From: Candidatus Methanoperedens nitratireducens
GTDB taxonomy: Archaea > Halobacteriota > Methanosarcinia > Methanosarcinales > Methanoperedenaceae
DNA length: 45,593 bases
Direction of reading: 5' to 3'
Assembly: GCF_900196725.1 (NCBI RefSeq)
Contig: NZ_FZMP01000001.1
Span: 1-45,593 of the forward strand
Below, one piece after another: positions 9,199 through 29,796 of this stretch (positions are counted from its first letter, which is position 1; every line of letters starts with the position of its first letter). Made by a program: the position numbers and the translations under genes. The notes below the pieces were generated by a model that was given only the letters and a program-made list of their open reading frames with translations, was not told the origin of the DNA and searched no databases.

Positions 9199-9226
9199 TA
9201 TAAACAGGTGTGTGATACTCGTGTGA
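9199..9226 (-). promoter_or_regulatory. Motility-regulon promoter of the che operon
   Basis: Read in gene direction this is TCACA-N6-TCACA-N4-TGTTTATA. The two TCACA copies (9222-9226, 9211-9215 complement) are exactly 11 bp apart. The TATA box is at 9199-9206, 77 bases before the cheY ATG. The spacer between the repeats differs from the other copies (no poly-T), but the spacing is identical. Confidence 0.8.
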
Positions 9227-9235
9227 TTCAAGCCT

Positions 9236-10891
9236 TCAGACCATCCCTAACAGCGGACCCATGGCTTTCAGGGTGAGTTCGGCTGTTATAGCAGAAACCC
9301 ATACAAGTCCCACAAAATGGGTATAAGTGTTAAAATGATGACCGCCATCGACTATCCTGATAAGCATCGCCGAAAGCAGGGAATGGCCGACCATCATAGA
9401 CATCACCATGGTGGACATCATGCTGACATCCATGTGGGCGACGCTGCTTATCGATATGCCGATATCAACATCAGGAACCGTAACATCTGAAAAAAGCCTA
9501 CCAAGCATTGAAATTATGGAAATTGAAAGGAACATGGTGGCACCTATACCGGCGGTTAACCCGTAAAGGACACCGGTCAGGCTTGTGGCACTGCTGTATC
9601 TTAATTTGCGCATTGAAAGTATATACATAAAATTATGGTTGATGATCTCGCCAATGACCCCCGGCTTTCCGCCCACATCAGTTCCTTCCACGAACATTGT
9701 TGCAAACCGCTCAATCAGGTTGCTTCCCGCGCCGGCTGCAAAATGTTCCCACGCTCCCCTTTTATTGACACGGGATTTCAGTCGTTTGTACAGGTTTGAT
9801 ATATTGATAGAGAGGGGACCGAAATCGTGTGCGCGCAGTTCTTTTAAGGATTCCATGATAAGACCGCTCCTTGAGCCTGCCGCCCCGCCCAGTGAGCGTA
9901 TAAAAGCACCGAAGTTGTCGTCATACCGTTTGATTTTATTCTCTTCCTGCCTTGCGATCAGTCCTGTTATTAACAGCGGTGTTAAAGAAACTGCAAACAT
10001 GATGGTTATGGGTAAATCGGTAAATGTGATCAGCATGCCTGTGAGGAAGAGACATAGTGCCAGGGATATGGGCATTGACCATTTAATCCGCCGGTCGGCT
10101 ATGGTCTCGATCTCAAGCGTATGCCATATCCGGTCGGTAGGAACCCTTGATTGCGCATAAACCAGCAGGCAAACTTCAGAGCCAAGGAAGATAGCAATGG
10201 CGCCTGCAAGCAGCATATTGGCATCCGTACCTGTGATTATAGGCATTATAACGGCAAATGAGACTAGCATGATAAGGGACATGCCCATAGAAAGGAATAT
10301 TTCTTTTATCATCTCAATGCCGTTCAGAGCATCTTTATACATTGTCATGAAATCGTTCATCACGACCGTTTGCTCGGATATAATGAATTTTTCAAAATCC
10401 TCGCCTGACTGCACTGCGTGGGCCATCCTGTCAAGAAAATCCGAGAACAATACCGAAGGCGTGCGCTTTCCTATGAAGCGGCAGGCTGCAGGGAAATTCA
10501 AATGCCAGTAGCGGATAAGCGCGTATATCCTCCCGGTCTCCCTGGCTAAATATCCGTATGCTTCGTTCTTTGATAGCAGAAGAAGGACATCTATTCTTGT
10601 CATCTGTGAAGTGGTAAGGACACCCATGTGGGTGATATAATAGTGGATACTGTTGTCTATCTCTTTTTTTTTCGTCTCCATGCTCATGACCGGAAATACG
10701 AAAACCGCTGCCACCAAGACAAATGGAACCAGCATGACTGCGAGCAATGTGTTTCCCTGCACGACGGACGGAGCCAGCAGTATCATGATAAAAGGGAAAA
10801 CGATTGCAAGAGCAAATACCGGAAGTACGAACTTCTTAAAATAAACCATTTTTTGCATACCGAGGCAGTGGAATACGACCTTTGAATCCAT
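9236..10891 (-). CDS. arlJ: Archaellum membrane platform protein ArlJ (FlaJ)
   Basis: Polytopic membrane platform (TadC/GspF superfamily) on which the ArlI ATPase acts to assemble and rotate the archaellum. The 551-residue protein has an N-terminal hydrophobic pair (about 15-70), a cytoplasmic helical domain, a central membrane block (about 200-310), a second cytoplasmic domain rich in charge (about 310-420), and C-terminal membrane helices. Length and topology match FlaJ/ArlJ. Its ATG overlaps the arlI stop (TAATG). It is the last archaellum gene before the separately promoted che operon. Confidence 0.93.
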   Translation of the reverse strand: MDSKVVFHCLGMQKMVYFKKFVLPVFALAIVFPFIMILLAPSVVQGNTLLAVMLVPFVLVAAVFVFPVMSMETKKKEIDNSIHYYITHMGVLTTSQMTRIDVLLLLSKNEAYGYLARETGRIYALIRYWHLNFPAACRFIGKRTPSVLFSDFLDRMAHAVQSGEDFEKFIISEQTVVMNDFMTMYKDALNGIEMIKEIFLSMGMSLIMLVSFAVIMPIITGTDANMLLAGAIAIFLGSEVCLLVYAQSRVPTDRIWHTLEIETIADRRIKWSMPISLALCLFLTGMLITFTDLPITIMFAVSLTPLLITGLIARQEENKIKRYDDNFGAFIRSLGGAAGSRSGLIMESLKELRAHDFGPLSINISNLYKRLKSRVNKRGAWEHFAAGAGSNLIERFATMFVEGTDVGGKPGVIGEIINHNFMYILSMRKLRYSSATSLTGVLYGLTAGIGATMFLSISIISMLGRLFSDVTVPDVDIGISISSVAHMDVSMMSTMVMSMMVGHSLLSAMLIRIVDGGHHFNTYTHFVGLVWVSAITAELTLKAMGPLLGMV

Positions 10892-12540
10892 TATACCTCA
10901 AACGGTATACCATCAAGACCTTTGGCCTGGTAATTCCAGATGATATCCCGTACCTTATAATAATCAAGGATGTTCTCTTCCACCAGCCTGTTAAGGATTT
11001 TTGCGCGAAGCGACAGTTCATCATATACCATGCGCTTATCATCGTATCCAAGTCTGACCGCCACTTTGTCAAGAATAAAGCTGTTATTCATGCCCCTGAA
11101 GCGATGTTTATCAAGGGTAAAATCCCATTCAAAGACGGCACGCGTTATTACGCCTCCCGCCTCCTCAAGGTACCCTTCTATCTCTTCAACCGAGGTGCAC
11201 CGTCTCAGGAACTTCCCTTTCCTGTATATTGCCTGGAGAATCAGGGCAGCGTTCAGGTTATCGGCGAACGTGGGAGGGATGTTGATAGGCTCACCCGTCA
11301 GGCGCTGGATTAGTTTTTGACAGAAGATGCATGGAAAGTGGCAAGCACTGCATGTCCTGTCTGCATTGCCTGGAATGCGACCGCACCTTCTTCACCCCTG
11401 ATCTCACCTACTATGATGTAGTTTGGTCTTGACCGCAGCGCGACCTTAAGCAGGGTAAATGTATCCACCTGGGACTCTTTTGGACCCTCTTCACGCGTGA
11501 TCAACTGCTGCCATGCTGCCTGCGGAGGGGACACTTCCGCAGTATTCTCTACTGAGTACATCTTGGCTTTGCGGCTTATGAATGGCAGCGCAGCGTTAAG
11601 CATAGTCGTCTTACCGCTTGCAGTTTCGCCGCTAAAGAAGATGCTCATCTGGTTCTCAAGCAGAAGCCACAGGTATGAAGCCAGATTCGCGTCGATACTG
11701 CCCCACTTGATGAGCTGGGAAATGCTGGCAGGGATTTCCATGAACTTTCTCAACGTGAAACTTGAACCTTTCCTGCTTATGTCGGTACTGTAAATGGCAT
11801 TGATTCGAGTACCGTCAGGCAATGTACCGTCGATAATAGGACGCGCATCGCTGACAGGTCTTCCTATCCTCTCACCGATCGTGTGTATCCAGTGGCTCAG
11901 GTTATCCTGGGTCCCGAATGTTATATTGGTATGGAGCATCCCCAGGATTTTGTGCACGACATATACGCCGCTCACGCCGATGCTGTGGATATCTTCAAGG
12001 TACGGGTCCCTTATAACCGGTTCGATAGCCCCCTGTCCGCTGATGTTCCTTTCAATATAATAAGAAATCTTATCGTATTCATCGGATGATATATCAATAA
12101 GCTTTTCACCGAGCAGTTTATCCAGGAAGTTAGTTGATAGTATCTTTCCTTCGATATGCACTGACTCATTTAAAAGTTTCATCATGAGCTTTTTAAGCTG
12201 TTCTTCATTCTCAGGTACTATTTCATCCGCTGCTTTCTCCAATAAAGAGTCCATTATCTGGCTATACTTTTTCTGCTCCCCCTCAGTCATCATCGGCTCA
12301 ATTGCAATATACTGGATTTCCCTGGTTGCTTTATCACCTTTAAGATGGATGAATATCGGGTCGCCTACCGGGTATATGATAGACGGTACGGGGATATCTA
12401 CGATATCCTTGGATAGTTTCGGGAAAAAGTCCGGCAATGCCCCGGTATCTTTTTTGCAGTTCTCAACATATTCTTTCAGATGCGGGTTTCTCGCGATCGC
12501 TTCTTCGAACTTGTCATCCAGAACTCGTCACTCTCCTCAT
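10891..12540 (-). CDS. arlI: Archaellum motor ATPase ArlI (FlaI), interrupted by frameshift(s)
   Basis: Hexameric secretion-superfamily ATPase that powers assembly and rotation of the archaellum. Walker A (GETASGKT) is encoded near 11607-11633. The Asp-box/Walker B region (IIVGEIRGEEG) and HAVLATFHA follow. The main frame stops at 11310 right after HASSVKN. The homologous continuation (LIQRLTGEPINI onward, to 10891) is in the next frame, so one base is missing in an A5 run (plus-strand T5, 11314-11318). At the other end the frame is open to about 12528, yet the only ATG/GTG/TTG in it is TTG 12437, which would remove a conserved N-terminal stretch. An ATG at 12540 overlapping the arlH stop reaches the frame if one base near 12519-12523 is extra. 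Repaired length is about 549 residues, normal for ArlI. Confidence 0.88.
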
Positions 12541-13229
12541 GAAACTCCGGATATGTCTATCATTACTCCAGCTTTAGCCTCGACCTTGAAACCGAACATG
12601 CTCCCAACCTGGAACTCGGGACGGGCGTATTTGTTTATTACAACCGTCCTTCGGATTTCCGTACCGATCTGGCGGATTTTCAGGGTGAGGAACACCTCGG
12701 CTGCGTCCTTGAACTCGGTGCTTATGCCCGGGGGCAGCTCAGTGCTGTCCATAGTAAGGATAATCGTTTTCTGCACTCCGGTTAATTTCTTGAAAAACGA
12801 GATCAATTGCAGGCTCTTTTCCGCTTCGGTACTATAGCGTATGAGCGCGGAGAGCGTGTCAATTATGATCAAATCTTTTTCAAAAAGACCTGCTGCTCCC
12901 ATAAGCCTCTGGATGAAGTCTATCCGTGGCTTGGATTCCTTAAGCAGGGGATAAGCGGGGATATAAAGAAGTTCTCCTTTTAACAGTTTGATACCAATGG
13001 GATAATCCAGGGAATTCATCTGGCGGATGAAATTTTTAGTGGTCAACTGTGTTGAGATATAAGTGACCGTGTTCTTATTATCCAGAAGACCGAAAGCGAA
13101 CCTCTGGCAAAGGGCGCTCTTCCCGCTGCCGTTCGGACCATCGATCACGACAAGCGCGCCTTTGGGGAAGCCTCCTCCCAGCATCTGGTTCATCTCATCC
13201 CTGTCAAGTGCAAATGAATATACTACCAT
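12537..13229 (-). CDS. arlH: Archaellum ATPase-like regulator ArlH (FlaH)
   Basis: RecA/KaiC-superfamily ATP-binding protein that forms a ring on ArlI and ArlJ and is required for archaellum assembly. The 230-residue protein has Walker A GPNGSGKS at residues 31-38 and a Walker B-like LIIIDTLSALI near residue 121. It starts 3 bases after the arlG stop. Its stop TGA is embedded in an ATGA that could be the original arlI start. The KaiC-like gene at 28.97-29.72 kb is a distinct relative, not a copy. Confidence 0.93.
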   Translation of the reverse strand: MVVYSFALDRDEMNQMLGGGFPKGALVVIDGPNGSGKSALCQRFAFGLLDNKNTVTYISTQLTTKNFIRQMNSLDYPIGIKLLKGELLYIPAYPLLKESKPRIDFIQRLMGAAGLFEKDLIIIDTLSALIRYSTEAEKSLQLISFFKKLTGVQKTIILTMDSTELPPGISTEFKDAAEVFLTLKIRQIGTEIRRTVVINKYARPEFQVGSMFGFKVEAKAGVMIDISGVS

Positions 13230-13232
13230 AGT

Positions 13233-13679
13233 TTATTTCCTGAATTCGAATTCATCCTCAACACCGTTATCGGTCATCACTATTATTTTATGGCTGCCAG
13301 ATGCAATTGTCACAGTGGCACCTATCTGCAGGACATCGCCCGTTTGCCATACAGTACCCCCTCCGAGTATGGTTTTGCTGATACTATTATCGGGTACGGC
13401 AGACCCGTCAATAAGGACCGTTATATAAGCTGTAGAGAGGGCTGCTTTCCCTGTATTTTTAACATAGAATGTATAAACCCCGCCGGAATACGGGATTGTA
13501 TCCGGGTCATTTATCACGGTGATATCTGTTTTCAACTGTTCGGATAGTGTCTTGCTGCCCATAGTTGCTGCATTTGAGATCGACTGGATGTTCATGAACA
13601 ATGCCCCGGCCACCCCAAGAGAAATAACTACGGACACGATAAAGAAAATCATATGAGTTGCAGATGTATCCGCTCCCAT
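13233..13679 (-). CDS. arlG: Archaellum stator protein ArlG (FlaG)
   Basis: ArlG forms a filament with ArlF that anchors the motor to the S-layer. There is one N-terminal membrane helix (about residues 8-30, FFIVSVVISLGVAGALFM) followed by a beta-sandwich domain outside the membrane, the ArlG layout. I chose the ATG at 13679 (MGADTSATH), 148 residues, because GGTGAT lies just upstream. An in-frame ATG three codons earlier is possible but lies inside that site. It sits between arlF and arlH. Confidence 0.9.
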   Translation of the reverse strand: MGADTSATHMIFFIVSVVISLGVAGALFMNIQSISNAATMGSKTLSEQLKTDITVINDPDTIPYSGGVYTFYVKNTGKAALSTAYITVLIDGSAVPDNSISKTILGGGTVWQTGDVLQIGATVTIASGSHKIIVMTDNGVEDEFEFRK

Positions 13680-13688
13680 GCAGATCAC

Positions 13689-14099: not shown

Positions 14100-14113
14100 G
14101 CATACCTCCGCTG

Positions 14114-14716: not shown

Positions 14717-14743
14717 ATTGTATCATCCTTCTTAAAAAGAAAG

Positions 14744-14770
14744 AAAAAATTCCCCTTTTTTCAGGGGAAT
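14744..14770 (-). terminator. Terminator hairpin overlapping the arlB2 stop codon
   Basis: In gene direction a 7-bp stem ATTCCCC/GGGGAAT encloses an 8-base loop that contains the TGA stop codon. It is followed by a run of six T. The same structure ends arlB1. Sitting inside the arlB2-arlB3 junction, it should attenuate rather than end the operon, giving more archaellin than motor mRNA. Confidence 0.72.
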
Positions 14771-15366
14771 AGCTGTACCTGGGTATTGTCACCATAGGTT
14801 GAAGGAGCTACTAAATCCTTGATTACCATTGTTCCTGATTCGGGGATGATCTGAATAGTGCCCTTCTTCCTTGGGTACAATTCTTGGGTCATTGCATTTA
14901 AGTTCAGGGTAACGACCGCAAGGTCTCCAGATTGCAGGACATTATTAGCACTGCCTGAACCGACTCTCACTTCTGTATAGTTAAACAGCGTCGCAGTTGC
15001 TCCAGCAGATGCATCGGTCTGCCGGCTCAATATTGTTGTGCTGCTTTCATTTAAGTATTTTATAACTACTTTGCTGAAGTCAATGGATGAACCTCCGGCA
15101 GCAAGCTCCAATGTAACATTCAAATTTTGAACTCTTATACTGCTACCATCTGTTGTACCTACAACTGAAGATATTTTCAAATTAGAAGCCACTTCGCTCG
15201 TTGCCTCTTTACCAGTCTGCTGTGCTTTCTGCTGCAGTACACCCGACGTCTGAATCAACACTGCTGCCGCCACCGCTGCGACAAGAATCATCGCAATGAA
15301 GACGATCAGCGTGCCGATACCGACATCAGCTTGGTTATCTTTCAATATACTGATTTTGGTTTTCAT
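14761..15366 (-). CDS. arlB: Major archaellin
   Basis: Filament subunit of the archaellum, intact at 201 residues. The N-terminus has a short charged leader, a likely cleavage just before DVGIGTL with alanine rather than glycine at -1 (NQA), and then the assembly helix [20 protein letters not shown]. The rest is a beta-sandwich ending in VQLFP. It is very close to the frameshifted copy upstream in its first 60 residues, and both end in the same stop-codon hairpin. It has its own motility box 91 bases upstream and leads the arlB2-B3-F-G-H-I-J run. Confidence 0.95.
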
Positions 15367-15404
15367 AACGCCTCCATTAAATTTTTTGTCTTCGAAACTC
15401 AGGT

Positions 15405-15418: not shown

Positions 15419-15456
15419 ATACCCTGCTTCTAATCATTATGAGCATAATACCTGGA

Positions 15457-15484
15457 TATAAATGGAGTTGTGAAAAAAGTGTGA
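15457..15484 (-). promoter_or_regulatory. Motility-regulon promoter of arlB2
   Basis: TCACA copies at 15480-15484 and 15469-15473 (complement) lie 11 bp apart, then N4, then the TATA element CATTTATA at 15457-15464. The arlB2 start is 91 bases downstream. The spacer is the common poly-T form, so the whole box reads TTCACACTTTTTTCACAA. Confidence 0.85.
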
Positions 15485-15600: not shown

Positions 15601-16192
15601 AACTGTATCATATCACTGTCACCAAAGGTCGCCGGAGCTGCTACATCTTTGAGTACCATTGTTCCTGTTTCAGGTATTAAATAATGGTGCCTTTTTTCCG
15701 GGGATACAACTGCTGGTTCATCAGACTCAGGTCCATTGTAACAACCGCAAGGTCTGCAGCCTGCAGCACATGATTGGGCGTTCCACTGCCTACTCTTTCT
15801 TCCGAGTAGTTAAATAATGTAGCAGTAGCTCCGCTATCTGCAGTATTCAGGTTCAACGTAGTTGAAGTCGTTTCATTTATATACTTGATAACTACCTTCG
15901 AAAAGTCTATGGATGTACCCCCTGCTGCCAGTTCCACTGTTATGTTCAGCTTCTGGACATAACTGTGAGTGGCATCCGTTTGTCCTATTAATGATGTGAC
16001 CTTAAGGTTGGATGCAACTTCAGCGGTTGCTTCCTTACCCGTCTGCTGTGCTTTCTGCTGCAGTACACCCGATGTCTGGATCAACACCGCAGCCGCCACT
16101 GCTGCGACAAGAATCATCGCAATGAAGACTATCAATGTGCCGATACCGACATCAGCCTGGTTATCTTTTATCATATTGATTCTGGTTTTCAT
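15591..16192 (-). CDS. arlB: Major archaellin, interrupted by a one-base deletion
   Basis: Archaellin paralogue of the downstream 201-residue copy. The uninterrupted frame runs 16192-15677 and ends after RKKGTII. The missing C-terminus ([15 protein letters not shown] ... IQLFP) continues in the next frame down to a TAA at 15591-15593. Restoring one T in the T3 run (plus A3, 15679-15681) gives 200 residues, almost exactly the length of the intact copy. The signal peptide and assembly helix are complete. It has its own motility box and terminator, so it is a monocistronic unit. Confidence 0.88.
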
Positions 16193-16268: not shown

Positions 16269-16296
16269 TATAAATGAGGTTGTGAAAAAAGTGTGA
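16269..16296 (-). promoter_or_regulatory. Motility-regulon promoter of arlB1
   Basis: TCACA copies at 16292-16296 and 16281-16285 (complement) are 11 bp apart with a poly-T spacer. They are followed by N4 and CATTTATA at 16269-16276. The arlB1 ATG is 77 bases downstream. Confidence 0.85.
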
Positions 16297-17105: not shown

Positions 17106-17801
17106 TTATTGCGCTTTTATAAATATCATATCATTTTGCATGGGTAATTTATTTTCCGGTCCTTCAGGTATCTTATCTTCCGCGTTCTCGCAGAAGTGCG
17201 AATATATTGACTGCATAGCCTCTTCATGGCTTGCTGCTGCCGATAGCTGTATATATATCGATGAAGGATAGATGGTCATCCTGTTTATTTTCTGGGGGAT
17301 TTTATTATTTGCCAGGAACATCACTATCAGGGCTGCATTGAAGCTGTTGATCTCAGAATCCATACCTGTTATCTGGAGTGAGAGCTGGCTCTCAATGCTG
17401 TTGATCGATACCGTGACAGGCCAGTTGAGGATCGATAGCTCCTCGTTGATGATCTTATTCAGGCTGTTGATATCGTATATGTTAATATCACTGTGCGTTG
17501 AGAAAAGCTGGTTCGCTTCGCTCAACGGGGGAAGGGGGCTTTTTCTCTTACTCAGCATCCATTTGAACATCGTCAGCGGGATAGTCACGCCGAATATGCG
17601 GTTCCGTATCTGTTCACTGAAGTGGTTTTTTTCCTTCAAAAGATCTTTTGCCGTTTCCAGGCTTCCCATGTTCTCAGTTACGAAGCCTGTGAAATCTATG
17701 ATGTCTCTCATCGCCGCTGACAGGTTCCCCTGATGTTTTTTCAGCAACGGTTCAAGCAGCTTCAAATGCGCATCGCTTATTGATACATTTTTTCTCAGCA
17801 T
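17106..17801 (-). CDS. Ribbon-helix-helix-like protein, short paralogue
   Basis: Residues 1-40 (KNVSISDAHLKLLEPLL...GNLSAAMRDIIDF) have the strand-helix-helix pattern of ribbon-helix-helix DNA-binding proteins. The rest (to 231) is an uncharacterised alpha/beta region that aligns with the middle of the 348-residue paralogue upstream (W-x5-I, SFLV-like and QSIYSHF/QSLVEHF segments). I do not recognise a named family. SD-like AGGTG precedes the ATG. The upstream 120 bases hold a 9-bp inverted repeat and a TTTATATA box but only one TCACA half-site. It is a candidate regulator of the motility genes. Confidence 0.65.
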   Translation of the reverse strand: MLRKNVSISDAHLKLLEPLLKKHQGNLSAAMRDIIDFTGFVTENMGSLETAKDLLKEKNHFSEQIRNRIFGVTIPLTMFKWMLSKRKSPLPPLSEANQLFSTHSDINIYDINSLNKIINEELSILNWPVTVSINSIESQLSLQITGMDSEINSFNAALIVMFLANNKIPQKINRMTIYPSSIYIQLSAAASHEEAMQSIYSHFCENAEDKIPEGPENKLPMQNDMIFIKAQ

Positions 17802-18003: not shown

Positions 18004-19050
18004 TTAAATATTTTTTGTAAGCTGTAAAACCAGCATATCTTCATCAGGTTGCACAACAGGACTCATTACTATCAGGTTCTCCGAGCAGGCGGACCTGTAT
18101 TTTGCTCCATTGGCATTGAGCACATTCAACAGTATTTTTTCAATCGCGTTTATTGCGCGCGCATCAGTGTAACCATGGTATATCTTCAGCGTAGTCTCAT
18201 CCACATCTATCCTCTCCACTATGCCCATATATTCATACACTGATTTCATGGTTGAAATGAGAATCCCAAGAGGGATGTCCCTGATAGGGACTTTATGTAT
18301 CGCCTCTATCGGCGCTGTAAGATAACTTGGCGCCTCTTTCCCCATAATTAATTCGTTATAGTAATTTTTCGGTATTGTGACCATATTGTAATTGGTCTGC
18401 TTGTACAGGTTGACAATGCAGTTCCAGAATTCCTCTTTTTTTGATATCTCAGAGGTAATATCTTCTATTTGCCCGAAATGCTCAACAAGGGATTGCCTTG
18501 CAAGATTTGCATTTACCTGCTTTCTGAAATTGATAGTAATCGCGCTGGACATCCTTTTTAATGACGCTATCTCTTGCTTTTTCTGCGTTACAAGGAATGA
18601 TGAGACCATCCCGCCGAGAAATTCCATTTTAGATATGCTGTTCCCCACAAGGGTTATTTTTATATATGACGGGCTAATGGCATCGTCATAATCATATATT
18701 CTTATCTTTGTCTGCCACCCCGTACCGGCTGTCAGCTCATCCAGGTATTTTTCAAGTTCCGGAAGCTGTGCCGTCTTTACAGGATCAAGAATGCTGTTCA
18801 GGATATCCTGCTCAATAAGCCTGCCGCGCGCCTGTTTGATAAGCCAGTCAAGGACAGTTTCAGTAAGATTGCTTTCTGTTTTTAACCCGCTTATAAGCCT
18901 GGTTGCTGCATCAGGGTCCTTTGTTATCGTATCTACAAGGTCTATTATCTCGCGCATAGCCGCGCTGAAGTTCCCCTTATGCTTTAATACAAGCGGCTCC
19001 AGCTTCTTGATATGCCCTGTTTCCAATGATATATTTTTCCTGATAGACAT
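18004..19050 (-). CDS. Ribbon-helix-helix-like protein, long paralogue
   Basis: The N-terminus (KNISLETGHIKKLEPLV...GNFSAAMREIIDLVD, residues 5-40) matches a ribbon-helix-helix DNA-binding fold: one strand, then two helices with the GNxSAAxRE segment at the second helix. Residues about 95-205 correspond to the alpha/beta region of the 231-residue paralogue. Residues 205-348 are an extra domain unique to this copy. Its promoter carries the full motility box, so it is a member of that regulon. As a DNA-binding protein it could also be its regulator. That role is inference; no homologue of known function is recognised. Confidence 0.68.
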   Translation of the reverse strand: MSIRKNISLETGHIKKLEPLVLKHKGNFSAAMREIIDLVDTITKDPDAATRLISGLKTESNLTETVLDWLIKQARGRLIEQDILNSILDPVKTAQLPELEKYLDELTAGTGWQTKIRIYDYDDAISPSYIKITLVGNSISKMEFLGGMVSSFLVTQKKQEIASLKRMSSAITINFRKQVNANLARQSLVEHFGQIEDITSEISKKEEFWNCIVNLYKQTNYNMVTIPKNYYNELIMGKEAPSYLTAPIEAIHKVPIRDIPLGILISTMKSVYEYMGIVERIDVDETTLKIYHGYTDARAINAIEKILLNVLNANGAKYRSACSENLIVMSPVVQPDEDMLVLQLTKNI

Positions 19051-19107: not shown

Positions 19108-19135
19108 TATAAACAAAATTGTGAGAAATGTGTGA
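19108..19135 (-). promoter_or_regulatory. Motility-regulon promoter of the long RHH-like gene
   Basis: TCACA copies at 19131-19135 and 19120-19124 (complement) are 11 bp apart. N4 and TGTTTATA at 19108-19115 follow. The start codon is 58 bases downstream. The spacer (CATTTC in gene direction) departs from the poly-T version. Confidence 0.82.
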
Positions 19136-19989: not shown

Positions 19990-19990
19990 G

Positions 19991-20812: not shown

Positions 20813-20840
20813 TATAAATGGAATTGTGAAAAAAGTGTGA
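20813..20840 (-). promoter_or_regulatory. Motility-regulon promoter of the unknown membrane/zinc-ribbon operon
   Basis: TCACA copies at 20836-20840 and 20825-20829 (complement) are 11 bp apart with a poly-T spacer. They are followed by N4 and CATTTATA at 20813-20820. The chosen ATG at 20768 is 45 bases downstream, and the expected transcription start would fall about 18 bases before it. Confidence 0.85.
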
Positions 20841-20937: not shown

Positions 20938-21812
20938 ATGGCTATCCATACACCAACTGTAAGGCTTTTAAAAGCCTCTGTTCTCGTAGCGTTGTCAGGT
21001 ATCTTCAGGTTATATATCGCTTTTCTTTTCATAAGAGCTAAACCTAACTTACTGGCTTACATAGCCGGAGGTCTCGTGATATACACGGTTTATACCCTTG
21101 ACAGGGCACTTGAATGCAAGGAAGACGCAGTAAACAGATGCGAATTAACAGGTTCAAAGAAAGAGGTCGGCATTCTTGTATCCGTCTCTACCTTCTGTAT
21201 CGGGGCTTCCATTCTATTCATTGAGAATTTATTTGTCGTACCTTTCCTGCCTCTGATAATCGGGTGTCTATACAGCAAAGGAGTGAAAATCATGGGCTTC
21301 AACATGAAGCTTAAAGGCGGGTTTGGAGTTAAAAATCTGGTTGTCGCCCTGACCTGGGGAGTTTTCATTGCCGGGATTACCACGAGTACGGATGCCGGCA
21401 TAGCTTCCCTTTTTTTGTTTTTCTTTTCTTTAGCATAAAGGTTTTCATAAACTCGGTTATATACGATTTCAAGGATGTGAAAGGCGATTCGCTGGCTGGC
21501 ATCAGGACCCTGCCTGTACAGATAGGTGAAAAAAACACCATCGGCTTCCTATCTGTGCTGCATTTGATTTTACATACAGGCATGTTCCTGGCGGTTTTAA
21601 TAGGAATCATAGCTTTTGAGCCTCTAATACTGCTGTACAGCTTTATTTCAGGGATAACATGTATCTTTCACTTTACTTTAGAGAAAGATACGAAACAAAA
21701 AGAAAGAAAACTTATAAGGGAGTTCCTGATCGATGGGGAGTCCGCTACAGTAATTTTATTGAGAGCCTTTACAGGCTCGTTATTTCCTCTGAGCGCTCTT
21801 TATAATAATTAA
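20938..21812 (+). CDS. UbiA-family prenyltransferase, interrupted by a one-base deletion
   Basis: Membrane prenyltransferase that attaches an isoprenoid chain to an aromatic or polar acceptor. The first aspartate motif is YTLDRALECKED and the second is YDFKDVKGDSLAG, both typical of UbiA. The first frame ends at 21438. The second half, including the second motif, is read in the neighbouring frame from the T-rich stretch onward (T7 at 21410-21416 or T5 at 21418-21422). Repair gives about 291 residues with eight to nine hydrophobic helices, the family norm. Start ATG 20938 is favoured by the TATA distance. The substrate cannot be deduced. The 3' end overlaps the convergent regulator gene by 44 bases. 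Confidence 0.82.
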
Positions 21813-22551
21813 AAAGTTCTTCTCCCCATGAAATAGCGGATATGTCAAAACTCACCATATCCTTTTTAGTATCAAATGCTCCGTCCTTAAAGAAAAGTGA
21901 CATAGAAAAGAAAACATCGGTTGTAACGAATGCAAGTTTGATATCTTCATCACAAACGTAAAGCCTGCCGTTCTTAAGATTCAATATTCGCGCAAGTTCC
22001 GGACCGTATTCTTTTTCTACTTTCCTGAATACGTCCCTTGTCAATACAAGAGAGACGTCTTTTCCTTTTTCAGAGAGTTGTGTGAAAAAACTGGGATAAA
22101 TCGGGTGAAATATAGGAGATACGCCCCTGAGTTTATTCGAGCTCAGAATATTTTCCAGGAATTCCCTGTGCGGTTCGTATATGTTCTCCGGCCTGCTTTC
22201 GACCAGATTGCAATTCCCTAACTCATAGAGCCTTTTTAACAGGTGATGAGGGATCGCGTTGATATCATGGGACTCCCAGAAATCCGTATATTTTTCAATT
22301 ATGTCTATAGTTTTAACGAATGAGTTGAACATTTCTGCTATTACCGTTCCCGTATCCGTGAGAGAATACATTTTACCCTCCCGCCACACCAGGTTCTGCT
22401 CTTCCAGCTTTCTTATCTGGGGTATCATACCCGAAGAGGTCACATTAAGGGAGATCCTGATATCTTCTAGTGTTTTCGGACCATCTATCAGGAATAACAA
22501 TAGATTTTCTCTCTTTTTAGAGAATGTGATGGTGCTTACCAGTTTATTCAT
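21769..22551 (-). CDS. Winged-helix regulator with FilR1-type domain
   Basis: Residues 8-75 form a winged-helix DNA-binding domain (LLLFLIDGPKTLEDIRISLNVTSSGMIPQIRKLEEQNLV). Residues about 100-255 match the FilR1/DUF1724 domain found in methanogen regulators, including REFLENILSSNKLRGVSPIFHP and the sensor-like VCDEDIKLAFVTTD segment. Such proteins are common in Methanosarcinales and usually act as single-component regulators. It is convergent with the UbiA-type gene and sits between the two halves of the motility cluster. No clear motility box precedes it. Confidence 0.85.
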   Translation of the reverse strand: MNKLVSTITFSKKRENLLLFLIDGPKTLEDIRISLNVTSSGMIPQIRKLEEQNLVWREGKMYSLTDTGTVIAEMFNSFVKTIDIIEKYTDFWESHDINAIPHHLLKRLYELGNCNLVESRPENIYEPHREFLENILSSNKLRGVSPIFHPIYPSFFTQLSEKGKDVSLVLTRDVFRKVEKEYGPELARILNLKNGRLYVCDEDIKLAFVTTDVFFSMSLFFKDGAFDTKKDMVSFDISAISWGEELFNYYKERSEEITSL

Positions 22552-22621: not shown

Positions 22622-23143
22622 TCAGGTAGTAGCCGCCTCCTCAGCCGCATCTGTCGATATGCTCCGGACGCTGTGCAGCTCTTTAGCACCAAGTATTTTA
22701 TTCAGGTTAAGAAGTATCAACAGCCTGTTATCAAGATTGCCCACGCCCATGACATATTCAGTGCCTATCTTATCGGCAATTACTGCCGGTGCAGGCTCAA
22801 CGCTCTTTTGAGGGAGACGGATAACCTCACTGACAGAATCGACCACGAACCCCATTACAGTATCGTCTATGTTTGCAACTATGATGCGTGTATTCTCATC
22901 CTGTTCTTTGGTCTCCATTCCCAGTACGACATTCAGGTTGATCACCACTATGATTTTGCCGCGCAGGTTGATTATTCCCCTTATATAATCGGGCGCCTGC
23001 GGAATCCTGGTGATATTTGTCATGCGGATGATCTCCTGCACCTTCATTATCTCAACGCCGAACTCCTCGACGCCTATTTTGAAGACGACAAGCTGGAGTT
23101 CGCCGTCTGATATTGCTTTTACACCCGGGGTTATTTCTGCCAT
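22622..23143 (-). CDS. cheW: CheW coupling protein 1
   Basis: Scaffold that couples chemoreceptors to CheA. One CheW domain covers residues 12-160, with VFKIGVEEFGVEIMKVQEIIR at the N-terminal half and NLRGKIIVVINLN in the core. It follows mcp1 by 9 bases with a GGAGGATGAC ribosome-binding site. The central 130 residues are practically identical to CheW2, while the ends differ, so the two copies are recent duplicates or are kept alike by gene conversion. Confidence 0.95.
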   Translation of the reverse strand: MAEITPGVKAISDGELQLVVFKIGVEEFGVEIMKVQEIIRMTNITRIPQAPDYIRGIINLRGKIIVVINLNVVLGMETKEQDENTRIIVANIDDTVMGFVVDSVSEVIRLPQKSVEPAPAVIADKIGTEYVMGVGNLDNRLLILLNLNKILGAKELHSVRSISTDAAEEAATT

Positions 23144-23152
23144 GTCATCCTC

Positions 23153-25462
23153 CTACTTAGGCTGCATGTCATCAAACAGGGATGGTTCTGCTTTCCCTGT
23201 TCCCTCGTCAGTACCCGGTTTATCCTCTTGTATCTCTTCTTGCTTGCCGGGCATATCACTCTTAACTTCCTGTTTCTTGTTATGCATCTTCGGTGCCTTA
23301 TGCTCAACAACAGGTTTCTTCTCGTGCTTTTCGACGGATTTATGCTCGATGTGAGGTTTCTGTTCATGTTTCATTCGTTCTTCCATATGTTTTACGGTTG
23401 ATGCCGCTCCCAGATTGAATTTCGCAACTTCAGCCTGCAATTCCTCTGCCAGTTGTGCCAGTTCCTGGGCGGCTCTCACGAGCTGCTCCATTGAAGCCGA
23501 TTGCTCCTGCGCAGCAGCAGAAGCTTCCTGGGTGCCTGCTGCGGATTCTTCACTTATCGCGGAAACGTCCTCTACAGAGGCTGTGACCTCTTCAACCGAT
23601 GCTGACTGCTCCTCAGATGCAGCAGCTATCTCCTGCACCATAGTGGCTACACTACCGGCTGACTGAACTATCATGTTGATTGATGATGCAGTCGCTTCGA
23701 TTGTCTTTGCACCTTCTCCGACGGTTTTAGTGCCCTTATCCATGCTCTCAACAGCTCTCTTAGTTCCATTCTGGACTTCTTTTATGAGTTCGGTAATCTG
23801 GTTCGCCGCACCCCTTGATTCCTCGGCAAGTTTTCTTACCTCGTCGGCTACTACGGCAAAGCCCCTGCCGTGTTCACCGGCGCGCGCGGCTTCAATCGCT
23901 GCGTTCAGAGCAAGGAGGTTCGTCTGGTCTGCGATATTGGTTATCACGCCGATAATCTCACCTATCTTCTGGGATTTGCTGTCAAGTTCTTTTATCACCA
24001 GGGCTGAGTTATCAACAGTTGATTGTATCTCTGTCATCTTTACTGCAACCTCGCTTGACATCTTCCCGACTTCCTGGGCTGTCTTATTGGCATCATCTGC
24101 ACCCTCAGCAGCCTTCTGTGAATTGGCTGCGACCTGCTGTACGCTCTCTGCCATCTCCTTCATGGCGCGGCTGATCTCAGCCATCTTCGATGCCTGCTGG
24201 CTTACGCCATTGGCGATATCCTGTGTCGTGTTGGATATCTGCTCGGTGGAAGCTTTCATCTCTTCGCTTGATGCTGATAATTCCTGCGCAGTTGAAGAGA
24301 CCATCATTGCAGAGTTCTGCACCTTGCCGAGAACGCCTTTTAAGCTCTCTACCATGCCCTGGATTGCCTGGGAAAGCTGCCCCATCTCATCTTTAGATTC
24401 GCTCTTCACCTCGACCGTCAGATCGCCGCCAGCCAACTTGGTAGTTGCATTTACAATATTACCCAGCGGCTTAAGAATAATTTTATTTACCAGCATAACC
24501 ACGGCAGAACTGATAATTATTGCAGAAACTAATGCTATGATAAGGACAATTATGCTATTCTCTTTTGCTGTTGTCTCCGAAGCTGTCACGTCCATGACCG
24601 CAACAACCACACCGACCTTATTATTACCTGCATCATATAACGGGAATCCTCCCGTAATAAACGTGGAGCCATCTTTCTGGAACTTGTTAAATACCTCTCC
24701 GTCATCTTTTATGCCTGATAAATGCTCCTCGCTGCTGGCTACGAAGGAGCTTATATCCTCCGATGTAGTTTCGATCATTACGTAATTTTTAAGATCATTA
24801 TAGTTATCCCTGAGCCCTTTTCCATCCCTTGCTGATTTCCAGGTTTCAGGGCTAATATATTCTTTTTTCACCACAATGCCGATCTCACTTCCCGTCTGCT
24901 TCTTCATGACATTCAGGAAATGATCGATCTCTTCACCCAGTTCAATATAGCCGATAAGGTTCGTGCCGTTGTAATAAGGATGCACAACCCTTAATGCAAA
25001 AGCGGTCTTGCCAAGTTCCAGCCCTGTTCCGAATCCATTGGTCTGCATTGATTTTTCAAGTGTTTTCCTTGTGATCTTGTCGCCAAAATCGGATTTTTTA
25101 TGCAGCCTGACAAAATTAGTACCATTGGGCAGATGAATATAAAAATGAGTTATTCCGAATTGATCTTTTAACTGGTTGAACAGGGGCAGCCCGTAACCAT
25201 AGAATTCATCATGGTTATTTTTAAGATATTCCTCTTTAAGCTGTTCATTGACAAGTACTGCTGTCAGTGTGCTGGACAACATCTTTATGTCATTATTCTC
25301 AAGAGTATAGAACATCTCTTTAGCTGTTTTGACCTTATCCTGACCCTCTGTCCTCAGGTTGTTATCCTGGGCGCTCACGAAGGAATAATAGAATACACCC
25401 GTAAGCAGTGCCATGCCAATAAGTATTATGGGCAATAACTTGAAAACAATACTGTTTTTCAT
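23153..25462 (-). CDS. Methyl-accepting chemotaxis protein with Cache-type sensor
   Basis: Chemoreceptor of 769 residues. TM1 is about 8-28. The extracytoplasmic sensor (about 35-295) has a double-Cache-like core ([20 protein letters not shown], and [22 protein letters not shown]). TM2 is about 302-325, followed by a HAMP domain (about 326-380) and the signalling coiled coil. The CheA/CheW contact tip reads [20 protein letters not shown]. The C-terminal 100 residues are a Lys/Glu/His-rich tail. The ligand is not predictable, though the sensor fold usually binds small organic molecules. It is co-transcribed with cheW1 from a motility promoter. Confidence 0.94.
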
Positions 25463-25578
25463 AATTTAGCTCCTATATATCTATCTTGGTCTGCTCTGAT
25501 AGCTTCTTGCTCTTGCGTAAGGAATGTTTAATTCCTTGTGAAAGAATTTTATCTATTAAATAAAAAGGTGTACCTGCA

Positions 25579-25606
25579 TAAATACAAATTTGTGAAAAAA
25601 GTGTGA
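25579..25606 (-). promoter_or_regulatory. Motility-regulon promoter of mcp1-cheW1
   Basis: TCACA copies at 25602-25606 and 25591-25595 (complement) are 11 bp apart with a poly-T spacer. N4 and TGTATTTA at 25579-25586 follow. The mcp1 start is 117 bases downstream, the longest leader in the set. Confidence 0.8.
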
Positions 25607-25630
25607 AAACAGGGTGATAAAAAGTGACCT

Positions 25631-26152
25631 TTACACATCTGTCTCAGCCTCTGCCGTATCCGCCGATATGCTCTGGATGCTGTGCAGTTCTTTTGCGCCA
25701 AGTATCTTATCCAGGTTGAGAAGTATAAGCAGCCTGTTATCGAGCTTGCCCACGCCCATGACATATTCAGTGCCTATCTTATCGGCGATAACAGCAGGCG
25801 CAGGTTCAACACTCTTCTGTGAGAGACGGATTACCTCACTAACAGAATCCACCACGAATCCCATCACAGTATCGTCTATATTTGCAACTATGATGCGTGT
25901 GTTCTCATCCTGTTCCTTGGTTTCCATTCCCAGTACGACATTCAGGTTGATCACCACTATAATCCTGCCGCGCAGGTTGATTATCCCCCTTATATAATCG
26001 GGCGCCTGCGGAATCCTGGTGATATTTGTCATGCGGATGATTTCTTGCACCTTCATTATCTCAACACCGAACTCCTCGACACCTATTTTGAAGGCGACGA
26101 GCTGGAGCTCGCCGTCTGATGCTGTTTTTGTATCCTGGGGTAGTTCTGTCAT
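25631..26152 (-). CDS. cheW: CheW coupling protein 2
   Basis: Second CheW, 173 residues. It has the same domain and nearly the same central sequence as CheW1 (for example MKVQEIIRMTNITRIPQAPDY in both). Differences are confined mostly to the first 12 and last 20 residues. It lies 9 bases after the mcp2 stop and has the same ribosome-binding arrangement, so each receptor has its own CheW within a duplicated unit. Confidence 0.95.
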   Translation of the reverse strand: MTELPQDTKTASDGELQLVAFKIGVEEFGVEIMKVQEIIRMTNITRIPQAPDYIRGIINLRGRIIVVINLNVVLGMETKEQDENTRIIVANIDDTVMGFVVDSVSEVIRLSQKSVEPAPAVIADKIGTEYVMGVGKLDNRLLILLNLDKILGAKELHSIQSISADTAEAETDV

Positions 26153-26161
26153 GGCATCCTC

Positions 26162-28419
26162 CTACTTAGGCTGCATATCATCAAAAAGGGATGGTTCTAC
26201 GTTCCCTGTTCCCTCGGCAGAACCCGGTTTAAACTCCGGTTTCTCTTCACTCTTGCCGGGCATATCATCCCTTGCTTCATGTTTCTGATGATGCATCGTT
26301 GACGTCTTATTTTCAATAACAGGTTGCTTCTCGTGCTTTAACATCTCATCCACATGTTTTACTGTTGATGCCGCTCCGATGTTGAATTTTGCGACCTCCA
26401 TCTGCAATTCCTCTGCAAGTTGCGCCAGTTCCTGCGCCACCCTCACGAGCTGCTCCATCGATGCCGCCTGTTCTTGTGCTGCGGCTGAGGCTTCCTGCGT
26501 ACCTGCGCTGATTCTTCACTGGTCGCTGATATATCCTCGACAGAAGCTGTGACCTCTTCAACGGATGCAGACTGCTCCTGCGCGGCAGCAGCGATCTCCT
26601 GGACCATCGTAGCCACGCTTCCGGCTGACTGGACTATCATGTTAATGGATGATACGGTTTCCCCGATAGTTTTTGCTCCCTCGCCAACCGTTTTAGTGCC
26701 TTTCTCCATGCTATCGACAGCTTTCCTGGTTCCCTGCTGTACTTCTTTTATGAGCTCGGTTATCTGGTTCGCCGCACCCCTTGATTCCTCAGCAAGCTTC
26801 CTGACCTCATCGGCTACAACTGCAAAGCCCCTGCCGTGTTCGCCTGCTCTGGCAGCCTCAATGGCAGCATTCAGTGCAAGGAGGTTCGTCTGGTCTGCGA
26901 TATTTGTGATTACACCTATAATTTCACCTATCTTCTGGGACTTGCCATCAAGCTCTTTTATCACTAAGGACGAGTTATCCACGGTTGACTGGATTTCGGT
27001 CATCTTGCTTGCGACTTCATTGGACTTCTTCCCTACTTCCTGGGCAGTCTTATTGGCATCATCAGCGCTTTCGGCAGCTTTCTGGGAATTTATCGCGACC
27101 TGCTGTATGCTCTCTGCCATCTCTCTCATAGCCCTGTTCACTTCTGTCAATTTCGACGCCTGCTGGCTTACGCCACTGGCAATATCCTGTGTCGTGTTGG
27201 ATATCTGCTCGGTGGAAGCTTTCATCTCTTCGCTTGATGCTGATAATTCCTGCGCAGTTGAAGAGACCATCATTGCAGAGTTCTGCACCTTGCCGAGGAC
27301 GCCTTTTAAGCTCTCTACCATGCCCTGGATTGCCTGGGAAAGCTGTCCCACTTCATCCCTGGAATCGCTCTTAACCTCTACTGTAAGGTCGCCTGCTGCG
27401 ACCTTATTGGACGCATGGAGCATGCTATCAACCGGTTTGGTGATGGAGCGAGAGATATACAATCCAGAACCTAGCCCTATTATAGCCGCGATAACTCCAG
27501 AGACAACCATAAGCAGAGTAGAGTTTGTCTTTGCCTTTACTGCTTCTTCCCCGGCAGATACCATTGCTGCGTTCTGTTCCTCTTCAAATTTTGCAAGTAA
27601 GCTATTGAGTTCTTCCCCGCTAGCTTCCAGTTCCTGCATTCTTGTATATATGCCAGTCTGCAGCTCCATTATTTTTTCAAATTTTGCTTTATACGCCACA
27701 AGACCTGACTTTATCTCAGCTTTCTCGGCAGAGGTGAAGTCATTTGACTGCTCTACGGCATTACCAAAATCAGTTATATCCGTCTGCCATGACTTCCAGT
27801 AACTTGCACTAGCTCTGTTATACCTTGGTTCTGTATAAATTACAATATCCTTCTCATGTCGTCTCAACTTCTGCTCTTCGTATTTCACGCCCATATCTAT
27901 TTTCTTCTGCCCTGTCACATAAGTCCCATATCCAAGGCTATCCTCGAATTTATGAACCACTGCCTGGAAATCTTTATATTCGCCTGAATAATAATCTCCA
28001 TGTGCATCAACGAGGGCAAACAATCCTGGTTTCCTGGCATTTATGGGCGCATGCGCAAGTTCGTCGTATTCTCCAAGTTTCGCACTTATCTGGTCTATGG
28101 CTGTTTGATCTTCCCCATGTTCTTTTAATGTCCCTATTACTTCTTCAATTTTCTTTTTATTTTCATCATATATTTTGGAAGCATTTTTGTCACCATTTAC
28201 GTAAGTGCGTAATGCATTCTGCTGGTCAAGCACAAGCAGTTCCAATTCTATTGAATTATCTGCAAGTACTGTGCGCTGGTTCAATATCTCGTCCAGATGC
28301 TCACCAACAGTGTTTATGCCAGAGTATCCTACGAGTCCTACCACAGCCAGCAAAATGATTATTAAACCGAATCCGCCTATCAGCTTTTTACTTAATGACA
28401 TGTCCTTTATACTGACCAT
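26162..28419 (-). CDS. Methyl-accepting chemotaxis protein with helical-bundle sensor, interrupted
   Basis: Start taken at ATG 28419 ([12 protein letters not shown]) because the in-frame ATG at 28431 lies inside the GGAGG ribosome-binding site. TM1 is about 14-34, the all-helical sensor (four-helix-bundle or HBM-like) runs to about 298, and TM2 is about 300-322. HAMP and signalling domains follow that are nearly identical to MCP1. The frame breaks after ATSEESA; compared with MCP1 one G of a GG pair is missing near 26505-26506. The end ([18 protein letters not shown] to the stop at 26162) continues in the next frame. Repaired length is about 752 residues. The CheA-binding tip precedes the lesion, so a shortened protein might still signal. 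Confidence 0.9.
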
Positions 28420-28492
28420 ATAATCCTCCATTTTTTATTTTTGGAATCCTCAAGAGGGTACAATTATGTGAACAAAAAGAACTCCACCCGTT

Positions 28493-28520
28493 TATATACA
28501 AAATTGTGAAAAAAGTGTGA
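28493..28520 (-). promoter_or_regulatory. Motility-regulon promoter of mcp2-cheW2
   Basis: TCACA copies at 28516-28520 and 28505-28509 (complement) are 11 bp apart with a poly-T spacer. N4 and TGTATATA at 28493-28500 follow. The mcp2 start is 74 bases downstream. Confidence 0.85.
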
Positions 28521-28525
28521 ACTAT

Positions 28526-28967
28526 TTATTTCTGGAAAAGCTTGAACCCTTGTAAAAACCTGGGAAGCTCTACCATATTCATTTTTTTGACCAGGCGCGG
28601 AAGGTCGCTAAAAGATGGTTTTTTCAGAATATTTTCCTCTTCACCCTCATCAACCGGGGTATCTGTATTGGCTGCTGCACCGGGCGTACGGCTGGCGCTT
28701 ATTTCTTTTTGCGCTATCTTCCCTGAAGATTCAGTTATACCTTTATCCCGGCTTGCCTTGCCTTTTACCTTACCATTGTTGTAGTAATTCTCAGGCGTCT
28801 GTATCCCCAGTTTCTGCGCCTCGCTAATAAGCCGGTTATATTCTCTCAGCACCCAGCCTATCTCAGAGTGGTTCTTATAACCTACTTCGAACCCCAGTTC
28901 ATATATTTTGTTTATAATCAGTTCCTTATCCGTTGTTTTGCCGCTAATAACCTCAAACCCCTTTCAT
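28526..28967 (-). CDS. Unknown protein paired with the KaiC-like ATPase, apparently frameshifted
   Basis: The uninterrupted part starts at a GTG (28852) and gives 108 residues. The same frame stays open upstream to a TGA at about 28968. An ATG at 28967-28965, just after the KaiC-like stop, joins it if one base of the C4 run 28958-28961 is extra. The joined product would be 146 residues beginning MKGFEVISGKTTDKEL. The N-terminal half is helical (INKIYELGFEVGYKNHSEIGWVLREYNRLI), the middle is a low-complexity Pro/Ala/Thr/Glu linker, and the end is a short basic, hydrophobic segment (LPRLVKKMNMVELPRFLQGF). No family is recognised. It is second in the motility-box unit led by the KaiC-like gene. 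Confidence 0.6.
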
Positions 28968-28968
28968 C

Positions 28969-29724
28969 CTATTTCTTCAGCGACTTCATCGCTTTTAGTC
29001 CTTTGTCCGTGAACTCAACAGCGTGCATATCGCAACTGTGCTTCGTTCCTCGCATTTTAATTATCTGCAGCGCTCTTGCCATATTGCCATGCTTGTCCAT
29101 GTAATTATGCAGAAAGATGACGCCATGGGAAGCGAACTGTTCTATCGTGTACGCATCGGGTTTCAGGAGTTCGGATAACAGCAGTGTGGTACATCCGAGA
29201 TTTTTCAGGTTACGGATGAACCTTCCTATGGATCTTTCCTCCAGCGCAGGATGCTGTGACGTGAACCTTATTGCAGACAGCGAGTCAATTACCAGTCTCT
29301 TGATACTATACTGCTTGACCAGGGTTTCTACGTTCTTGAACACCGTGTATGGCGAGGGAGGCGTGTTCTCGGGGGATTCGGTCGATACGGTCTGCTCATA
29401 GCTGGCTGTGATAAGTGTTGAAACTTCATCGTACTGGCCATAATCCTTGGTAGGACCGATATCCAGGAAAAATAATTTATTCTTCTTGATAAGCTCTTCG
29501 ACATGCAGATTATACCGCGACATATCCTCGATGATCGTACCGATACTCTCGGAGATCGCTATATATGCACCTGCTTCCCCTTCCATTGCCCCCGTAACAA
29601 GAAATTGCACCCCGAACGTGGTTTTCCCGCTGCCCGGAGACCCGCTGAGCAGATACTGCCTTCCCTGGAGCAGACCTCCTTCAACGAGTTCATCAAATCC
29701 TTCAATTCCAGTTCTTATTCTCAT
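28969..29724 (-). CDS. KaiC-like RecA-superfamily ATPase
   Basis: Single KaiC/RadA-type ATPase domain of 251 residues. Walker A GSPGSGKT is at 28-35, and a Walker B RLVIDSLSAI lies near residue 145. The KaiC-like opening RIRTGIEGFDELVEGGLLQGR is intact. The C-terminal part ends with a GTKHSCDMHAVEFTDKG segment seen in archaeal KaiC-domain proteins. It is not ArlH, which is present at 12.5 kb. A motility box 45 bases upstream places it in the motility regulon, so a signalling or switch role near the archaellum is reasonable but unproven. Confidence 0.85.
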   Translation of the reverse strand: MRIRTGIEGFDELVEGGLLQGRQYLLSGSPGSGKTTFGVQFLVTGAMEGEAGAYIAISESIGTIIEDMSRYNLHVEELIKKNKLFFLDIGPTKDYGQYDEVSTLITASYEQTVSTESPENTPPSPYTVFKNVETLVKQYSIKRLVIDSLSAIRFTSQHPALEERSIGRFIRNLKNLGCTTLLLSELLKPDAYTIEQFASHGVIFLHNYMDKHGNMARALQIIKMRGTKHSCDMHAVEFTDKGLKAMKSLKK

Positions 29725-29768
29725 ATCTAAGCCTCACATTATTTGAATATGGGATTTAATGTACTCTA

Positions 29769-29796
29769 TATAAACAAAGTTGTGAAATGCGTGTGA
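29769..29796 (-). promoter_or_regulatory. Motility-regulon promoter of the KaiC-like gene
   Basis: TCACA copies at 29792-29796 and 29781-29785 (complement) are 11 bp apart. N4 and TGTTTATA at 29769-29776 follow. The start codon is 45 bases downstream. It lies in the divergent region shared with arlCDE, but faces only the KaiC-like gene. Confidence 0.85.

Follow-up and report, generated by a model that had tools for sequence, protein, structure and literature searches.

In bacteria, the filament, chemotaxis and receptor genes of the flagellar regulon share one rigid class of promoter under a dedicated sigma factor. The number of archaeal activators studied so far is relatively small (PMC5512572), and EarA and CsmR are the only regulators of euryarchaeal archaella named in the available parts of the literature (PMC5512572, PMC10665913, PMC13286277; all comparisons with cited papers below draw on such partial texts). 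The EarA sites of Methanococcus maripaludis and Pyrococcus furiosus are short, often multiple and located just upstream of a weak B recognition element (BRE), and recruitment of transcription factor B (TFB) has been proposed (PMC5512572, PMC10665913). In Haloferax volcanii, where there is no EarA, the archaellum genes have a lineage-specific regulator, CsmR (PMC13286277). Here we analyzed a stretch of 45,593 nucleotides from Candidatus Methanoperedens nitratireducens (NZ_FZMP01000001.1, positions 1 to 45,593; hereafter the window), in which eight promoters carry a paired direct repeat, TCACA-N6-TCACA, ahead of the TATA box. We consider, with a probability of about 0.6, that these sites are an activator-type element defining a genus-wide motility and chemotaxis regulon, and that RHH1, a protein with a ribbon-helix-helix (RHH)-like N-terminus encoded in the window, reads the element, activates the regulon and regulates its own gene. 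The sites predicted from the window are real, and the pattern is stronger than first described. This is a new regulon of a known general kind, that of archaeal promoters that depend on an activator; its candidate reader is unusual and its RNA arm unexpected.

The Methanoperedens element shares with the bacterial flagellar regulon the single rigid promoter class, but its signature is located upstream of the core promoter and no second TFB turned up. It resembles the EarA promoters in having short sites, often more than one, just upstream of the BRE, which here is presumably weak; however, the EarA motifs are TACATA or A(C/G)(C/G)TACA(T/C) rather than TCACA, and the element here is a rigid pair with an 11-bp pitch and a fixed distance to the TATA box, serves many unlinked targets including che and methyl-accepting chemotaxis protein (MCP) genes, and has a candidate reader of another protein class (PMC5512572, PMC10665913). 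CsmR, compared here at the level of the protein, is a 13-kDa predicted winged-helix protein, whereas RHH1 has 348 residues and an RHH-like N-terminus (PMC13286277). The closest precedent for the proposed RHH1 binding is the RHH protein Omega (ParB) of plasmid pSM19035, which binds adjacent ATCAC-type repeats of the non-palindromic form WATCACW with one dimer per repeat, and tightly on two neighbours (PMC9499535). Unlike the element described here, the Omega repeats are gapless 7-bp units and serve bacterial plasmid partition, and the likeness is one of binding mode. The RHH fold is not named as an archaellum activator in the available parts of the literature on EarA and CsmR, and a search of open papers (listed titles and abstracts) for Methanoperedens together with archaellum, promoter or chemotaxis found nothing on the element.

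Geometry of the paired element

The original prediction placed the eight sites on the minus strand, and both coordinates and strand are correct: they are the sole TCACA-N6-TCACA matches in the window, with none elsewhere on either strand. The TATA box starts 6 bp past the inner repeat at all eight sites and reads TTTATA in six, TATTTA in one and TATATA in one. A weight matrix built from 178 elements of other genomes, with the own genome excluded, recovered the identical eight sites at 33.1–43.5 bits, while every other window position scored at or below -8 bits and the best score of 60 Markov shuffles was 10.9. The predicted leader range of 45–117 bases was nearly right, one base off: from the end of the TATA box to the start codon, leaders measured for seven genes (the site at 20813 was left out) span 44–116 nt.

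The sequence profile comprises 191 of the 192 elements found in the genus, as one (G011:C53:65824) lies outside the fetched stretch, and reads T/A-TCACAC-N-TTTT-TCACA-A/C-H-T-Y-Y-G-TTTATA-T. The search itself demanded both repeats and a TATA box, which makes their columns invariant by design; the information lies in the remaining columns. The unit is W-TCACA-C/A, present twice as direct repeats with an 11-bp pitch, one helical turn, followed by 6 bp and then TTTATATA. When the gaps were left free between 3 and 9 bp in six genomes, 84 of 89 distinct sites had 6 bp between the repeats and 79 of them also had 6 bp to the box, compared with 5 sites in the reversed control. The spacings are thus near-invariant, and the constant geometry that had been proposed from the window holds. 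A third exact TCACA one more pitch upstream occurs at just 4 of 191 sites, so the pair is the rule and triples are rare. Separately, positions 30–36 of the profile, 2–9 bp past TTTATA, form a weakly conserved stretch of the CAGGTA or CATGA type.

The inner TCACA occupies positions -11 to -7 from the TATA box, and a separate conserved, pyrimidine-rich sequence of about A-H-T-Y-Y-G fills the BRE slot (-6 to -1), with purines in at most 12% of 178 distinct sequences at positions -4 to -2. The inner repeat therefore abuts the BRE and does not occupy it, which overturns the earlier proposal that TFB would bind at the inner TCACA. The other part of that proposal, a site one helical turn long directly upstream of the core promoter, is borne out. 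Archaeal TATA boxes are centred 26/27 bp before the transcription start (PMC5512572), which places the repeats at about -52 to -37, immediately upstream of the BRE. Archaeal activators typically bind there, and repressors cover the promoter or lie downstream (PMC5512572). The pyrimidine-rich BRE beside the repeats is presumably weak.

Conservation of the sequence between the inner repeat and the TATA box would also suit a dedicated TFB with a special BRE, consisting of the TCACA repeats or else of the TYYG box, an option raised in the original prediction. We regard this as very improbable, since each of the 21 genomes with a TFB match, out of 24 searched, has one TFB gene irrespective of the element, and no extra copy was seen (G009, G011 and G023 gave no match). 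It is just as hard to believe that the sites have no regulatory meaning and are left over from a promoter cassette that was duplicated or mobile. Several copies share a CTTTTT spacer, and seven copies of the small RNA described below are located in G014, as such a cassette might leave behind. However, conservation ends one base before the outer repeat, with at most 0.2 bits per position farther upstream among the 191 elements, which disfavours a mobile relic; moreover, the spacers vary and the sites precede many different gene families.

Distribution in the genus

In 24 Methanoperedens genomes, the exact 28-mer occurs 192 times (13 + 102 + 77), and the reversed 28-mer has no exact match in 23 of them (for the own genome, the control covers up to two mismatches). 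The 16-bp core gave 389 matches versus 49 for the reversed control in the genus, and 68 versus 52, near the control, in 16 genomes from other families of the order. Seventeen genomes have 5–18 elements, two (G010 and G023) have one each, and five (G001, G012, G013, G016 and G022) have none. In the own genome (3.52 Mb, 250 contigs), the core has 18 matches versus 3 in the control, and 8 of the 13 exact 28-mers fall inside a 20-kb stretch of the window. Allowing one mismatch added one site and allowing two added 15, for a total of 29 against 10 in the reversed control, so the own-genome set is sharply bounded at eight sites plus five.

Elements of the genus score a median of 40.1 and a minimum of 20.6 bits. 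Viral or extrachromosomal spread was considered and rejected: 20 pattern matches in viral contigs score only -3.5 to 31.8 bits and, in view of the genus scores, were treated as chance, and no RHH relative was confirmed in viral contigs. EarA-type sites were not enriched, in agreement with the predicted difference from the EarA site: TACATA was found in 6 of 191 element regions versus 6.0 in shuffled sequence and at none of the eight window sites, and A(C/G)(C/G)TACA(T/C) in none of 191 versus 0.9. The probable reader of the element is a DNA-binding protein that is itself controlled through it, rather than the archaellum regulator known from other archaea.

Target genes

Targets were assigned as the best open frame starting at most 330 bp after the element, compared by BLAST with the window proteins, a procedure that can err. 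The classes are best-hit classes, and those of CheY and CheB take in longer receiver-domain proteins. On this basis, the first genes after the 191 elements encode MCPs (43), archaellins (25), CheY-like proteins (19), RHH1 (18), the first protein of the small membrane operon (16), KaiC-like ATPases (15), CheB (3) and CheA (1), and 51 have no class among the window proteins. Relatives of archaellin, MCP, CheY, CheB and CheA make up 91 of the 191, a share counted without a genome-wide base rate for such genes. Judged by this share, the original prediction is not refuted by an equal frequency upstream of unrelated genes, and as the element precedes archaellin, MCP, che and related genes on many contigs, the idea of one promoter class for motility and chemotaxis stands.

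Counted by genome, archaellin relatives follow an element in 17 genomes, CheY-like proteins in 16, the first protein of the small membrane operon in 15 and the KaiC-like ATPase in 14; among the classified families, only archaellin and RHH1 do so in all 17 element-rich genomes. Inspection by eye placed small membrane proteins, HAMP-type kinases, a conserved frame of 41 aa and nine genes for small RNAs among the unclassified first genes, and at least one site (G020:C11:23898) looks like a chance match inside a gene. A regulon of motility genes was thus rightly predicted from the window and too narrowly drawn, since it extends to unlinked loci and also takes in kinases, membrane proteins and a family of small RNAs.

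Two recurrent kinds of small frame were seen behind elements. The conserved frame of about 41 aa (MDCIDLQQQIEEKKYKID...) follows the element in three genomes (L041 at G000:C10:11327, L122 and L131). Small proteins that appear membrane-bound by eye and share an R-A-(K/R)-(A/V)-F-L-(N/D/S) motif recur at unlinked loci (Table 1).

RHH1 as the candidate reader

An RHH1 orthologue is present in exactly the 17 genomes with at least five elements, at 71–100% identity (in G002, the gene is split over two contigs, at 67 and 71%), whereas the best relatives in the other seven genomes have at most 36% identity among the matches listed. All 18 orthologous copies in these 17 genomes have an element directly upstream, with leaders of 41–61 nt. 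RHH1 and arlH are located on different contigs in 11 of the 17 genomes, and the element is still upstream of RHH1. Contig breaks may explain some of these separations; in G021, RHH1 is 36 kb from the nearer end of a 198-kb contig. Residues 4–10 are invariant in 17 aligned sequences from 16 genomes (the split G002 copy was excluded), and the N-terminal pattern is RKNISL...GNFSAAMREIID. From this pattern and a weak Pfam match in relatives, RHH1 is a candidate RHH protein. The RHH-like gene, which the original prediction listed among the downstream genes, does follow an element, but may be more than a target, being the best candidate for the regulator.

It is nevertheless conceivable, if unlikely, that another DNA-binding protein reads the activator site and that RHH1 is merely one of its most constant targets. 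The co-occurrence with the element is equally strict for archaellin and for arlH of the same type, and the genome-by-genome comparison covered four proteins and one family. On the other hand, no other constant target looks DNA-binding, and RHH1 keeps its element even on a contig separate from the archaellum genes. The one winged-helix regulator of the window that was tested, a protein in which a FilR1_middle domain and an N-terminal winged helix were confirmed (Table 1), fails the co-occurrence: it has no match in G002 and G004, which carry 6 and 10 elements, and has relatives at 46–53% identity in the element-free G001 and G016.

In the reading we favour, RHH1 dimers would bind the two repeats side by side, which the 11-bp pitch would set on one face of the DNA, and would help TFB and the TATA-binding protein (TBP) onto the weak BRE; RHH1 would control its own gene through the same element. 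We infer activation rather than repression. RHH proteins are often autorepressors, and the inner repeat adjoins the BRE slot, so RHH1 might instead block TFB at the BRE of its own and the motility genes. We consider this quite improbable, since a site wholly upstream of the BRE is the typical place of an activator (PMC5512572), a pyrimidine-rich BRE slot is expected of promoters that need help, and the near-invariant phasing to the TATA box suits a contact with TFB or TBP.

Hairpin small RNAs

The element precedes a previously unrecognized family of structured small RNAs, represented by 16 copies spread over 6 genomes. A stem of 10 pairs is common to nine stretches that follow an element and contain no convincing reading frame; six of its pairs show compensatory changes among the nine sequences, with one cell broken. 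None of the nine copies (8 loci) reached the gathering score of a family in Rfam 15, a scan that did not take in the other seven. The overlap of one of them with a miRNA model scores 24.8 bits, below that model's gathering score of 63. A search of open papers on archaeal small RNAs found nothing.

A model of the RNA alone, starting 44 nt past the start of the element, was searched over the 24 genomes. Of 26 further matches scored upstream, seven have an element (10–30 bits) exactly 43–45 nt upstream, and the other 19 have nothing above -18 bits; the remaining matches, mostly weak or opposite-strand shadows, were outside the 26. In all 16 small RNAs, the stem starts 28–31 nt after the first T of the TATA box (the script allowed 24–39), an indirect sign of the start site that agrees with the distance of 26/27 bp between the centre of a TATA box and the transcription start (PMC5512572). 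In most copies, the loop is rich in C (CCACYCC, CCUCC and similar sequences) and, judged from this composition, could pair with Shine-Dalgarno sequences; the RNAs may in this way adjust the translation of target mRNAs. The regulon would accordingly comprise archaellins, the che operon, MCP-CheW units, the KaiC-like ATPase, small membrane proteins and the hairpin small RNAs.

Two archaellum types in the genus

ArlH splits like RHH1, with 77–100% identity in the 17 element-rich genomes (type A) and 52–54% in six others (type B), and G023 has no convincing match. Precisely the six type-B genomes, with their divergent archaellum, encode a 120-aa protein, which none of the 17 has. In G012, G016 and G022, its gene immediately precedes that of archaellin; in G013, the two genes are close, but the 120-aa frame is read from the other strand and a further frame separates them; and in G001 and G010, its contig is not the one that carries arlH. 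By eye, the protein looks like a small winged helix, and no family matched above the cut-off; from its position and look, we guess that it is an EarA relative. TTT-N-CAACCA stands ahead of the TATA box in the four type-B archaellin promoters read, and none of five type-B stretches examined has the TCACA pair.

At least four changes between the two types are needed on a tree built from the TFB genes of 20 genomes (shuffled labels: mean 5.4, minimum 3). Because the types are interleaved, the match between RHH1 and the element does not reflect one inherited event, although a single-gene TFB tree is a limited guide to genome history.

Other features of the window

The operon from 20858 down to 19408 encodes two small proteins, membrane-bound by eye, and a zinc-ribbon protein. 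The plus-strand archaellum gene at 30095–30988 (FlaC and Arch_fla_DE domains) has no element in the weight-matrix scan of the window. The archaellin frame at 15677–16192 (minus strand) encodes 171 aa and is without the C-terminal part of its neighbouring paralogue. By eye, the frames of the second MCP (26162–28431, minus strand) and of ArlI (10836–12437, minus strand) stop early and seem to continue in another frame; these early ends seem to be assembly indels or signs of decayed genes.

Table 1 Locations of the elements, proteins and small RNAs discussed in the text (plain coordinates refer to the window; G, genome; C, contig; L, locus)
Feature	Location	Strand	Score, basis or remark
Element upstream of cheY-cheB-cheA-cheR-cheC-cheD (9122 down to 3770)	9199..9226	-	33.1 bits
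Element upstream of archaellin gene 14761-15366	15457..15484	-	43.5 bits
Element upstream of archaellin gene 15677-16192	16269..16296	-	39.8 bits
Element upstream of RHH-like gene 18004-19050	19108..19135	-	40.9 bits
Element upstream of small-membrane-protein/zinc-ribbon operon (20858 down to 19408)	20813..20840	-	41.4 bits
Element upstream of MCP 23153-25462 and CheW 22622-23143	25579..25606	-	36.2 bits
Element upstream of MCP 26443-28431 and CheW 25631-26152	28493..28520	-	40.7 bits
Element upstream of KaiC-like ATPase gene 28969-29724	29769..29796	-	41.1 bits
CheY, first gene of che operon	8766..9122	-	Translation
Archaellin	14761..15366	-	Sequence
RHH2, 231 aa, paralogue of RHH1 N-terminal half	17106..17801	-	Seen in at least some genomes
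RHH1, 348 aa, candidate regulator	18004..19050	-	RHH-like N-terminus (about residues 4-45, sequence pattern)
FilR1-type winged-helix protein	21769..22551	-	PF08350, E 1.2e-40; HVO_A0261_N, E 2.2e-9
Methyl-accepting chemotaxis protein	23153..25462	-	Named from sequence
KaiC-family ATPase	28969..29724	-	PF06745, E 4.1e-50
Own-genome elements outside the window	C10:11327, C51:6627, C77:14289, C85:15722, C147:50853		
Own-genome small-RNA copy	G000:C51:6535-6610 (L042, L190)		Outside the window
Further small-RNA loci	L144, L147, L148, L149, L123, L125, L129, L189, L215, L193, L195, L219, L220, L221		
Genomes with an RHH1 orthologue	G000, G002-G009, G011, G014, G015, G017-G021		
120-aa protein	L174:5339-5701, L175:4061-4423, L178:9653-10015		Near divergent archaellins
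R-A-(K/R)-(A/V)-F-L-(N/D/S) family	L044, L005, L135, L139, L140, L142 and others		

Discussion

Several observations weigh against the proposed reading. As to the fold, Pfam RHH_1 matches 3 of 20 relatives weakly (best E 0.0062) and RHH1 itself not at all, the AlphaFold model of RHH1, built from three sequences, has a pLDDT (predicted local distance difference test) of 37 and is unusable, and the sole match in a PDB sequence search is insignificant (E 0.45). Many RHH proteins are repressors. As to the co-occurrence, RHH1 travels with the whole type-A archaellum system and its match with the element could be passive; G010 (87% complete) and G023 (74% complete) each carry one element without an RHH1 orthologue, and RHH1 relatives occur in all 24 genomes, element-free ones included. 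Among 12 paralogues read, 10 share the N-terminal strand (RKN/SISL), and the expectation that such paralogues share the element failed, as none of the 12 has the TCACA pair within 300 bp upstream. As to the regulon, the base-rate caveat on the motility share and the 51 unclassified first genes stand, and the BRE comparison had only 21 non-element promoters to draw on. As to the RNA arm, the weakest accepted copy, in G011 (3.1e-5), is outranked by two element-less matches in G004 (E 1.3e-5 and 2.1e-5), and a family-like stretch at G005:C14:42774 has no element.

The RHH1 paralogues of about 350 aa (L183–L188) share, by eye, another promoter-proximal sequence, with TTTATTAGATACTAA, AGTG-TACT and GTAGTA-type pieces, which suggests separate autoregulatory sites.

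As a tentative and rather doubtful extension of the RHH1 reading, an archaellum with another small, regulator-like protein and the flagellar-style, RHH-activated regulon may have replaced each other repeatedly as units, the latter co-firing hairpin RNAs that would pair with Shine-Dalgarno sequences and so switching on swimming genes and a translational switch at the same time. The distribution of the two types suggests that, from one lineage of the genus to another, a change of motility system goes along with a change of its regulator. Methane-oxidizing archaea are hard to manipulate genetically. In these organisms, a whole regulon can be predicted from a single signature, together with its start sites, a family of small RNAs and a candidate regulator, and the 192 sites are open to one binding assay.

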